Of a stretch of DNA of 36,237 nucleotides, positions 24,598 to 29,839 are shown piece after piece. Source of the stretch: Candidatus Magasanikiibacteriota bacterium (GTDB taxonomy: Bacteria; Patescibacteriota; Patescibacteriia; Magasanikbacterales; UBA922). The stretch lies in contig JABIGQ010000009.1 in the NCBI GenBank assembly GCA_018650085.1, positions 1 through 36,237 of the forward strand, written 5' to 3'. Numbering within the stretch: position 1 is the stretch's first letter; the number at the start of each line of letters is the position of its first letter. Made by a program: the position numbers and the translations under genes. Under the pieces are notes generated by a model. That model was not told the origin of the DNA. It searched no databases and worked only from the letters and a program-made list of their open reading frames with translations.

Positions 24598-26868
24598 ATG
24601 GGAAAAACCCTCGTTATTGTAGAGTCTCCTACAAAAGCTAAAACTATTTCAAAATTCCTTGGCGCATCATATATGGTGGAGTCTTCTTTTGGGCATGTCC
24701 GTGACCTGCCAAAAAGTAAGATGGGCATAGATATAGAAGGTGGAACATTTGATCCACACTATATTACAGCGCGTGATAAAACCAAACAAGTCAAAAAATT
24801 AAAAGAATTGGCAGCAAAAGCAGATACCATTATCTTTGCTACTGATGAAGATAGAGAAGGAGAAGCTATATCATGGCATCTTACACACGTATTAAAAATA
24901 AAACCAGAAGAAGCAAAACGAATTGCATTTCATGAAATTACAAAACATGCCATAGAAGAGGCGCTAAAACATCCTCGCCATATTGACCAAAAGCTCGTAG
25001 ACGCCCAACAAGCTCGCCGTGTGCTAGATAGATTGGTAGGATATGAACTCTCCCCTCTTTTATGGACAAAAGTTGCCAGAGGACTTTCTGCTGGTCGTGT
25101 ACAGTCTGTGGCTTTACGATTGGTTGTAGAAAGAGAAAGAGAAATATTAGCATTTAACCCAGAAGAATACTGGACCATAGAAGGAATGTTTTTCACACCA
25201 GAGAAAGAAGAACTTATTGCAAAATTACATGCTATTGATGGAAAAAAATTAACAAAATTTGATGTTAATAATGAAAAAGATGCAAAAGCTATTGTAGAGA
25301 AATTGACAGGAAAAGATTTTCATATTACACATATAGAAAAAAAAGAAGCAAAACGCACTCCCCCTGCTGCATTTATAACTTCCACTCTTCAACAACGTGC
25401 AAATACCATGCTTGGGTATTCTGCAAAACAAACTATGCGATTAGCCCAACAATTATATGAGGGTATAAAACTTGGCAGTGAAGGCCAACAAGGACTCATT
25501 ACATATATGCGTACAGATTCTACAAATTTATCTACGAAATTTTTAGATGAAACTACTAGCTACATAGCACAAGAATTTGGAGAAAAATATAGTCTAAAAG
25601 AACCAAGACTTTATAAGAAAAAAACAAAAGGTGCCCAAGAAGCACATGAAGCGATCCGCCCATCCGATCCAGCACGATCTCCAGAATCAATACAAGAATT
25701 CCTAGATCCACAACAGTATCGTTTGTATAGTCTTATTTGGAGACGTGCCGTTTCTACTCAAATGACAGAAGCGCGTTTAAATAAAACGACTATTGATATT
25801 ACAGGAAATGAACATACATTTCGTGCCACAGGGCAAACGATGGTTTTTGATGGCTGGATGAAATTATATCCAAACAGAACAAAAGAAGAAATCCTTCCCG
25901 ATTTAGAAGAAAGAGAAAAAATGCACTGTGAAAGCATTACGCCTACACAACATTTTACAGAACCACCAGCAAGATATTCCGATGCAACATTGGTAAAAGT
26001 TCTTGAGGAACATGGCATTGGTCGTCCATCTACTTATTCCCCTACCATTGGGACTATTGAAGCGCGCAATTATGTAGAACGAATAGAAAAACGACTCAAA
26101 CCAACACCAATTGCATTTGTAGTTATTGATTTATTAGTAGAACACTTTTCTGATATTGTGGACTATGCATTTACTGCAAAAATGGAAGAAAACCTAGATG
26201 AAATTGCAGCGGGAAGTAAACACTGGAAACCAATTATTTCTACATTTTATCACCCATTTCACGAAAATCTAGAAAAGAAAAAAGAAGAAATTACAAAAGA
26301 TCAAACTACTCATACCAGAGAAATTGGAAATGACCCAAAGACTGGGGATCCTATTATTGTAAAAATTGGACGGTATGGGCCATATGTACAGAAAGGAACA
26401 AAAGACGATGAAGAAAAACCACAATTTGCATCTCTAGAAGATGGGCAAGCACTAGAAACGCTTACACTAGAAGAGGCCCTACACCTTCTTTCTTTGCCAC
26501 GAAAAGTTGAGCTGAAAGATGGATTAATTATGGAAATCGCAAAAGGCCGTTTTGGGCCATATATCAAACTTGAAGGAAAATTTTATTCTATAAAAGATTC
26601 TGACCCATATACCATTACAAAAGAAGAAGCGCTAGAAGTGGTAAAAGAAGGAAAAGAAAAAGAAGCCCAAAAACAAATTCAAATCTTTGAAAGTGGCATT
26701 CAAGTACTCAATGGTCGCTATGGACCATACATAACAGATGGAGAAAAAAATGCAAAAATCCCAAAAGATACAGAACCAAAAGACCTAACAGAAGAACAAT
26801 GTAAAGCATTGTTAAAAGATGCAAAACCAAAGCGTGGAAGAAAGAAAACGACAAAGAAAAAGAAATAA
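24598..26868 (+). CDS. topA: DNA topoisomerase I
   Basis: TLVIVESPTKAKTISKFLG, ATDEDREGEAISWHL, GLSAGRVQSVALRLVVEREREI, LITYMRTDSTNLS; C-terminal repeats and Lys-rich tail. Confidence 0.97.
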   Translation: MGKTLVIVESPTKAKTISKFLGASYMVESSFGHVRDLPKSKMGIDIEGGTFDPHYITARDKTKQVKKLKELAAKADTIIFATDEDREGEAISWHLTHVLKIKPEEAKRIAFHEITKHAIEEALKHPRHIDQKLVDAQQARRVLDRLVGYELSPLLWTKVARGLSAGRVQSVALRLVVEREREILAFNPEEYWTIEGMFFTPEKEELIAKLHAIDGKKLTKFDVNNEKDAKAIVEKLTGKDFHITHIEKKEAKRTPPAAFITSTLQQRANTMLGYSAKQTMRLAQQLYEGIKLGSEGQQGLITYMRTDSTNLSTKFLDETTSYIAQEFGEKYSLKEPRLYKKKTKGAQEAHEAIRPSDPARSPESIQEFLDPQQYRLYSLIWRRAVSTQMTEARLNKTTIDITGNEHTFRATGQTMVFDGWMKLYPNRTKEEILPDLEEREKMHCESITPTQHFTEPPARYSDATLVKVLEEHGIGRPSTYSPTIGTIEARNYVERIEKRLKPTPIAFVVIDLLVEHFSDIVDYAFTAKMEENLDEIAAGSKHWKPIISTFYHPFHENLEKKKEEITKDQTTHTREIGNDPKTGDPIIVKIGRYGPYVQKGTKDDEEKPQFASLEDGQALETLTLEEALHLLSLPRKVELKDGLIMEIAKGRFGPYIKLEGKFYSIKDSDPYTITKEEALEVVKEGKEKEAQKQIQIFESGIQVLNGRYGPYITDGEKNAKIPKDTEPKDLTEEQCKALLKDAKPKRGRKKTTKKKK

Positions 26869-26881
26869 CAGACTAATAAAG

Positions 26882-26911
26882 AAAAAAGGATGAATATCTT
26901 CATCCTTTTTT
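26882..26911 (+). terminator. topA terminator
   Basis: AAAAAAGGATGAA-tatc-TTCATCCTTTTTT. Confidence 0.85.
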
Positions 26912-26913
26912 CA

Positions 26914-27060
26914 TACCTATTTTTTACAAAAGATACCTGAGGAAAATCCTTTTTCTCAAATATTGCGAATTCTACACCCAAAACATGAAGCGCATGCAGC
27001 GAGAACTAAGCAATATTTGATAAAAAAATGCGCCCGAATTATTTTTGTAAAAAATAGGTA
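26914..27060. repeat. 147-bp nested palindromic element with 18-bp perfect terminal inverted repeats
   Basis: TACCTATTTTTTACAAAA (26914..26931) vs TTTTGTAAAAAATAGGTA (27043..27060); inner pair TCAAATATTGC / GCAATATTTGA. Confidence 0.75.
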
Positions 27061-27084
27061 CGAAAAACTGTAATCTAAGATTAA

Positions 27085-27183
27085 TAAAAAAACACCATCT
27101 ATTATAAGATGATGTTCTTCATTGTAGCAGGAAGGCTATACCCCAATGCCTGAGCTGATACAAGAGGCCCTTGTACCTGCTAC
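27085..27183 (-). ncRNA. Candidate ~95-nt structured ncRNA (three-way junction plus terminator)
   Basis: Promoter TTGCAC-N17-TATACT puts the start at 27183; RNA begins GUAGCAGG pairing with CCUGCUAC, encloses UACAAG-GGCCU-CUUGUA and AGGC...GCCU hairpins; ends ACAUCAUCU-UAUAAU-AGAUGGUGU-UUUUUU. Confidence 0.6.
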
Positions 27184-27189
27184 ATAAAT

Positions 27190-27218
27190 AGTATATCAAG
27201 GTATGTTAAAATGTGCAA
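27190..27218 (-). promoter_or_regulatory. Putative promoter of the structured ncRNA
   Basis: TTGCAC (27218..27213), N17, TATACT (27195..27190). Confidence 0.6.
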
Positions 27219-27243
27219 CAGCCATTTCTTTGCTAAAATAACA

Positions 27244-27316
27244 CAAAAAGAAAAATACCTCGTTTAACCGAGGTATTTTTCTTTTGGCGTTTGGGTTATG
27301 TACCCTTGTATCACTC
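27244..27316 (-). ncRNA. Candidate ~70-nt short RNA ending in a strong terminator
   Basis: Promoter TTGACA-N17-TATTAT at 27351..27323; terminator with 17-bp stem AAAAGAAAAATACCTCG / CGAGGTATTTTTCTTTT (27246..27285). Confidence 0.45.
27246..27285. terminator. Strong, nearly symmetric terminator hairpin
   Basis: 17-bp perfect stem with 6-nt loop; T-rich on both strands. Confidence 0.8.
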
Positions 27317-27322
27317 GCTCAT

Positions 27323-27373
27323 ATAATAGCACATTTTTCATGTTTTGTCAATAGGGCCATATTCATGTATACT
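27323..27373. promoter_or_regulatory. Divergent promoters with overlapping -35 boxes
   Basis: Plus: TTGTCA (27345..27350)-N17-TATACT (27368..27373). Minus: TTGACA (27351..27346)-N17-TATTAT (27328..27323). Confidence 0.6.
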
Positions 27374-28435: not shown

Positions 28436-29839
28436 TTAATCCCCTCTCCCTCTTGCTCCTTTTTTCTTTATATTTGCTAATGTACTAAGCATTCTTTTCA
28501 AATCAAGTACACCTTGATGCTCTTCTCCAAGAAGTTCTTTAGATCTTTCGTAGAGATCTTCCAAACTTATTGCATCACGTTTTGTATCAAGCGCCTTAAA
28601 AAACTCCTCTCCTAATACAGAAGTTAAACGATCAGGATCTTTGTCAAAAACCATTCCTTTATTGTGCTCTAATTGAATAACTCGATCAATTAATATTTTT
28701 TGTTCAATTTTGCTTAAACCATCCTTCATCATTTGAAAAGAGAGATCTGCGATATGTTTCCATGCATCCCCTCCATGTTCTTTAGAAGGATAAAACCCAG
28801 TAAAAGCATCTTTACTTTCATAAAAATATTCCCGTAATTCTTGATCCGATAAGTGTCGTATCAACTCATCAGCAGATAAACCTCTTGGTTCTGGTAAACG
28901 ATGCATCATATAATCACTATCCTGATGCTCTATTTCACTACTCACTGCACGAATAAAATAGGTACGTAACCAACTAAACATCTTTGGAATTTGATCTTTT
29001 ATATCTTCTACTAAGACATTATCCCGAAAAGAGACTTCTCTATTTACACGCGTAGAAAGAGTATCTCCTAATACTTCATTTATTTCTACTTCTAATAGTT
29101 CTGCCCCATAAAAAGACAAAATTTCACGTTCCAGATCCACATGTTTATAATCTTTACGATTTTTAATGTCTTTTGTTTTGTCTTCCTCCTCCATTTTTTT
29201 TATACATTGCTTTTTTATATCATCAGAAACATGAATATCCACTATATTTAGACAATTCATGTATGCGTACGCTTGATTATATAATTGTAAATATATCAAA
29301 TGATCTAATTCATATAAAGCTTTTTCTTCATTTACATTAAAAAATTCTTTTGCTACATCTTCAGGTATATGTTCTAATAAGATCTGAAGATACTCATACC
29401 TCTTTCTTCGATGAATGAAATTAACACCTGTTCTTTTTAAAATACCACGTCTCAATGTTTCATCTTGTAAAAAATTAAGATCCTCGAAACAATCTAAATT
29501 CCAAGCAACCAGTGTAATCTTTCCCTTCTTCTCTATTAATTCTTTTGCAAGTTCAGATGAACAAATTAACTCATCAAATTTGTGTTTATAATAAAAAACT
29601 TCTGAAACAAATCCTTCATTTATGAGCGTATCAGCTATTTCCTGATTTAAACCTACACATCTTTCAAGATTATAAGATAAGTATTGTACACCATCTTTCA
29701 ATGCTAAGATATTTAATGCAGCATTATTATCTATATAATCCAAAGAATCATACAATTCATAACTTCTTTCCTCTGATTCCAAAGTAGATGTGTTGTTTAA
29801 TATATCTACTTCAGAGATTGCATCAAAACTATTTCTCAT
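28436..29839 (-). CDS. Uncharacterised, apparently alpha-helical protein, 467 aa
   Basis: Long intact ORF; no family recognised; C-terminal motif PEPRGLSADELIRHLSDQELREYFYE...EHGGDAWKHIADLSFQMMK. Confidence 0.8.
   Translation of the reverse strand: MRNSFDAISEVDILNNTSTLESEERSYELYDSLDYIDNNAALNILALKDGVQYLSYNLERCVGLNQEIADTLINEGFVSEVFYYKHKFDELICSSELAKELIEKKGKITLVAWNLDCFEDLNFLQDETLRRGILKRTGVNFIHRRKRYEYLQILLEHIPEDVAKEFFNVNEEKALYELDHLIYLQLYNQAYAYMNCLNIVDIHVSDDIKKQCIKKMEEEDKTKDIKNRKDYKHVDLEREILSFYGAELLEVEINEVLGDTLSTRVNREVSFRDNVLVEDIKDQIPKMFSWLRTYFIRAVSSEIEHQDSDYMMHRLPEPRGLSADELIRHLSDQELREYFYESKDAFTGFYPSKEHGGDAWKHIADLSFQMMKDGLSKIEQKILIDRVIQLEHNKGMVFDKDPDRLTSVLGEEFFKALDTKRDAISLEDLYERSKELLGEEHQGVLDLKRMLSTLANIKKKGARGRGD

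Follow-up and report, generated by a model that had tools for sequence, protein, structure and literature searches.

A putative two-chain noncoding RNA encoded beside topA in Patescibacteria

RNA-RNA pairing between adjacent genes is used by both crRNA/tracrRNA pairs and type I toxin-antitoxin units. In the CRISPR repeat:anti-repeat duplex, tracrRNA and crRNA are two separately encoded small RNAs with coevolving pairing segments. Likewise, adjacent antisense sRNA pairs (IstR-1/tisB, OrzO/zorO) and sRNA sponges have a neighbour-encoded partner and a 5' seed. The U4/U6 snRNA duplex, which we mention as a works-like comparison only, joins two noncoding RNAs through a pair of intermolecular helices that surround a junction, and SRP RNA (4.5S) is an example of a short hairpin-type housekeeping RNA. 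To our knowledge, outside CRISPR and the antisense control of mRNAs no bacterial noncoding RNA has been described that consists of two coevolving chains transcribed separately. Here, we describe a locus in a 36,237-nt contig stretch of a Candidatus Magasanikiibacteriota bacterium (the window) encoding two neighbouring small RNAs, RNA-A and RNA-B, on which no publication was found in the literature searched (Table 1).

Table 1. Features of the RNA-A/RNA-B locus, in positions of the window
Feature	Positions	Strand	Basis or remark
topA, conserved neighbour, convergent with RNA-B	24598..26868	+	TIGR01051; flanks the pair at 26 compared loci
RNA-B promoter, TTGCAC-N17-TATACT, extended -10 (TGA)	27190..27218	-	extended -10 in 24/28 homologues
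RNA-B core, 60 nt	27124..27183	-	covariance-model matches; covariation in P1, P2 and P3
RNA-B P1, GUAGCAGG/CCUGCUAC	27183-27176/27131-27124	-	covariation
RNA-B P2	27172-27169/27135-27132	-	covariation
RNA-B P3	27168-27165/27143-27140	-	covariation
RNA-B terminator	27087..27120	-	14-pair stem, then U tract
RNA-A promoter, TTGACA-N17-TATTAT, TG before -10	27323..27351	-	11/12 consensus matches
RNA-A, ~70-77 nt: 5' seed, hairpin GGGU/ACCC, helix-II segment, terminator	27240..27316	-	conserved upstream of RNA-B
RNA-A terminator, 17-bp stem and U tract	27246..27285	-	sequence
Helix I, A strand GUGAUACAAG	27305..27314	-	pairs with 27155-27164, 9/10 in the window
Helix I, B strand CUUGUAUCAG	27155..27164	-	complementary to the extreme 5' end of RNA-A
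Helix II, A strand ACCCAAACGCC	27286..27296	-	pairs with 27140-27150, conserved A-G and C-A mismatches; unique in the window
Helix II, B strand GGCAUUGGGGU	27140..27150	-	3' half of the RNA-B loop

The original prediction read the RNA-B region as the complete transcription unit of a structured noncoding RNA of no recognised class, in a CPR bacterium, and this reading is upheld. The promoter, the 8-bp outer stem and the terminator lie exactly where it had put them, and the claimed absence of an ORF is borne out, the sole frame longer than 20 aa beginning upstream of the transcription start, in the promoter. When the window was compared with Rfam, the gathering score was reached only by three tRNAs elsewhere in it; a relaxed scan returned sub-threshold matches only, and the candidates it raised were terminator-like hairpins, all below gathering. 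Among 31 homologous loci, Rfam 15 gave one match above the gathering score, a tRNA, the others being sub-threshold. We infer from the sequence that promoter, 60-nt structured core and terminator form a real unit, which is presumably transcribed. The fold of the 99-nt RNA-B strand beats 200 of 200 shuffles (z -4.8), and that of the 60-nt core by itself is unremarkable (z -1.4); the evidence that counts for a structure is comparative.

A BLAST search returned RNA-B relatives from four genomes within the same family. A five-sequence covariance model extended them to at least 18 of 46 family genomes, an 18-sequence model to at least 27 of 86 genomes of the order, and a 27-sequence model to further families of the class, these counts being lower bounds because a limited number of candidates was scored per genome. 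RNA-B occurs as one copy per genome in Ca. Magasanikbacteria and is sparser through the rest of the class, and it was single copy in each whole genome searched, with the exception of one contig-end sequence occurring twice. The sensitive searches covered this class, which we take to be ABY1; the RNA is conserved in 12 of its families (f1, f7, f8, f14, f16, f18, f22, f23, f51, f58, f65, f83), and many class genomes gave no match, where the limited scoring may have missed copies, though some genomes may truly lack the RNA. When 84,980 species genomes were scanned for the pattern, 41 matches resulted, only 13 of which, from Patescibacteria, score well with the model, the remaining ones being at chance level; the true matches all belong to Ca. 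Magasanikbacteria, Parcubacteria or Patescibacteria. No genuine match was found in the viral contigs scanned.

Covariation among the homologues defines the RNA-B fold. The outer stem P1 (8 bp) holds in 96.7% of cells and shows both-side changes at 8/8 pairs, and P2 (RAGG/CCUY) and P3 (RCCY/RGGU) are kept in 86% and 93%, respectively. Both-side changes occur at 13 of the 16 RNA-B pairs, and none of 500 shuffles matched the observed values. Judged from these alignments, the conserved fold is one long hairpin made up of P1, P2 and P3 and capped by a large apical loop. The inner three-way junction proposed earlier does not survive this comparison: its letters are present in the window, but it is 56% paired across 27 homologues, the same as shuffled columns, and its helices UACAAG/CUUGUA and AGGC/GCCU are not conserved. 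The proposed loop-loop contact is likewise wrong, the loop apparently pairing with a second RNA. Thus, the original prediction was correct about the unit and its outer stem but not about the inner fold or the loop contact, and it missed the neighbouring RNA-A.

Homologues with enough upstream sequence have a further transcription unit ahead of RNA-B, namely RNA-A, which was found in 37 of the ~41 genomes having RNA-B. Its promoters are mostly of the form TTGACA-17-TGnTATnnT, with at least 9/12 consensus matches in 26 of 28 homologues. Because the seed begins 3-7 nt past the -10 element, we take it to be the 5' end of RNA-A, whose start was placed by promoter spacing. The fold of RNA-A has a z of -8.4, and conservation is slight outside the RNA-B-pairing segments, the hairpin and the terminator. 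Partners were looked for in G270 and G248 and not found; a candidate RNA-A word 58 kb off in G270 is without a promoter and probably coding, and G152 (L118) is a doubtful case.

The extreme 5' end of RNA-A is complementary to the 5' half of the RNA-B loop (helix I). Across 32 genomes, 96.6% of the helix I pairs are standard and both sides are changed in 62 cells, whereas shuffled partners reach a mean of 77.6% and a maximum of 83.4%. When the count was restricted to one family to lessen the effect of relatedness, 145 of 150 pairs were formed, compared with a maximum of 137 in 20,000 shuffles. A segment taken from RNA-B alone finds an upstream match in cis that beats 100,000 permutations, and with RNA-A delimited the duplex energy averages -16.5 kcal/mol in cis versus -8.8 kcal/mol for swapped partners (0 of 100,000 permutations). 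In the pair-by-pair count, registers were set by hand, and permutations leave some effect of common descent. The loop complement scores at least 10.5 on the upstream sense strand in 17/28 cases and in 0/28 downstream or antisense. RNAcofold, which cannot model the A:B pseudoknot, predicted helix I in most pairs tried with modest net gains of -0.1 to -10 kcal/mol.

The 3' half of the loop pairs with an RNA-A segment past the small hairpin (helix II). This helix is weaker than helix I, being 76.9% paired, yet none of 2000 partner shuffles equalled the observed value and its duplex energy in cis beats 100,000 permutations. In distant families (L116, L117, L145), whole blocks are swapped on both sides, and class-level replacements are seen in L116 (ACCGCAAAACGAAG/CUUUGUUUUGGGGU) and L117 (CCCAAUGAC/GUCAUUGGG). 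At position 4 of helix II, the covariation may arise transitively, by way of helix I, P3 and the RNA-A hairpin. Compensatory changes are found between what appear to be two separate transcripts.

RNA-A lies 80-150 nt upstream of RNA-B on the same strand in most genomes. The spacing is 543 nt in G142 and 922 and 934 nt in G052 and G075, and in G236 RNA-A lies on the opposite strand at the far side of RNA-B, so that the two converge. The pair usually sits between relA/spoT, which is divergent from RNA-A at 23 loci with parB and parA farther out, and topA; the window's genus has a SemiSWEET gene in place of relA/spoT and retains topA. A search beside topA in other families yielded further pairs. 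The position of the pair suggests proximity to the partition/origin region. The usual placement close upstream on one strand would also suit a single long leader or attenuator, with the RNA-A and RNA-B segments as alternative structures of one molecule. We consider such intramolecular pairing very improbable: each RNA has its own promoter and terminator, the spacing reaches ~930 nt, the G236 genes converge, and the window has no gene downstream of RNA-B on its strand. Own promoters, wide spacing and the convergence in G236 make cis action within one transcript unlikely.

Matching pairing surfaces kept across many families of the ultra-small Patescibacteria point to an undescribed RNA of two parts, and the best reading of these sequences appears to be a new heterodimeric bacterial noncoding RNA. 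RNA-A and RNA-B would be made from separate promoters, ended at separate terminators and then joined as a heterodimer. The RNA-B stem P1-P2-P3 would display a loop of ~24 nt, whose 5' half could form the 9-13 bp of helix I with the RNA-A 5' end and whose 3' half the ~10 bp of helix II with its conserved mismatches. The RNA-A hairpin (RGGU/ACCY), P3 of RNA-B and helices I and II might then make up a four-way junction with exchangeable arms. As the two pairing segments vary in concert, they are unlikely to have a fixed third target, and since the seed is free to vary if its partner follows, the conserved entity would be the A:B complex itself and not the pairing of either RNA with a third, mRNA target. 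On this sequence evidence, the locus probably encodes a two-chain noncoding RNA, and the A:B complex conserved as its product would most likely serve as a housekeeping RNA or an RNP scaffold. The stricter proposal of an obligate two-chain RNA across the class, a four-way-junction heterodimer acting as a housekeeping machine outside CRISPR, could as easily fail as hold. The U4/U6 duplex has no homology to it, belongs to another domain of life and has another strand order. A likeness of RNA-A GGUGAU and RNA-B AUCACC to the 16S 3' end was considered and discarded, since the two segments vary in step with each other (GGUAAU/AUUACC, GUUGAU/AUCAAC).

The main rival is a sponge or antisense relationship: RNA-A would be an antisense regulator or sponge devoted to RNA-B, itself a regulatory sRNA, or the reverse, with the free partner acting on mRNAs and pairing leading to titration or decay. 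Two neighbouring small RNAs, a 5'-end seed on RNA-A and an accessible RNA-B loop are what such a pair would look like, the promoter is stronger on RNA-A than on RNA-B, and the slight conservation of RNA-A beyond its pairing segments, hairpin and terminator makes a dedicated regulator of RNA-B possible. We nevertheless hold this explanation to be unlikely, as the RNA-B loop changes together with RNA-A, which would oblige any mRNA target to follow, and simple antisense control has no need of a second helix with conserved mismatches. Unlike the described antisense sRNA pairs, neither RNA encodes a peptide, the two helices are non-collinear, and the pair is conserved across a class instead of a few genera. 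Nothing beyond the general knowledge that RNAs of neighbouring genes pair in both speaks for a crRNA/tracrRNA-like guide-RNA pair or for a type I toxin-antitoxin unit, and this is the least probable of the alternatives. Neither a CRISPR-like array nor a Cas protein lies beside the locus, and every frame of 20 aa or more on the RNA strands begins upstream of the inferred transcription starts, leaving no ORF within either transcript; in further contrast to tracrRNA:crRNA, the partners are single copy and two helices form in one loop.

The pair might also descend from a known housekeeping RNA (SRP RNA, 6S, RNase P, tmRNA) that split or diverged. A role in SRP was examined because SRP RNA is undetected in the class: neither RF00169 nor RF01854 matched in the window or its own genome, and in the class search RF00169 was found in 0/40 genomes and RF01854 in 0/12, with 13/14 controls found. 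In the near-complete genome G142, however, tblastn with E. coli Ffh and FtsY gave no match at E<=1, and the control proteins trmD, ftsE, rplS, grpE and rpsP were all matched. G142 would thus have no SRP protein left for an SRP RNA to bind, and RNA-A:RNA-B as an SRP replacement loses its basis. tmRNA is present in G142, and neither RNA has an above-threshold Rfam match at the homologous loci or the domain IV motif of SRP RNA. Hence, from searches for SRP RNA and tmRNA, we see only a slight chance that the pair derives from a known housekeeping RNA. The SRP pathway appears to be missing, its RNA being undetected in 40/40 class genomes and Ffh and FtsY in G142, which agrees with the report that many CPR bacteria are without SRP subunits (PMC8080830).

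If the proposed heterodimer is real, a bacterial RNA machine would be built from two separately transcribed chains outside CRISPR. The age of the pair (12 families), its single copy and its conserved locus suggest that it does something basic for these bacteria, whose genomes of ~1 Mb have shed SRP RNA among other basic RNAs. The A:B pairing predicts exact compensatory mutants and can thus be put to a direct test in vitro, with no need to grow the organism.

Several minor features were observed at these loci. The gene order parA-parB-relA/spoT-[RNA-A RNA-B]-topA is conserved at related loci of the order. A 467-aa ORF (28436-29839, minus strand) has no Pfam, NCBIfam or PADLOC match. In f1 genomes (e.g. 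L050, L051), the RNA-A terminator hairpin is often near CCCCAGUCGUAAGACCGGGG, with a GUAA loop and a conserved A-C mismatch, and is better conserved than a plain terminator requires. Between topA and RNA-B (26907-27067) lies a MITE-like element, without a second copy in a search of the window, whose 25-nt terminal inverted repeats (96%) enclose a second inverted repeat of 17 nt.
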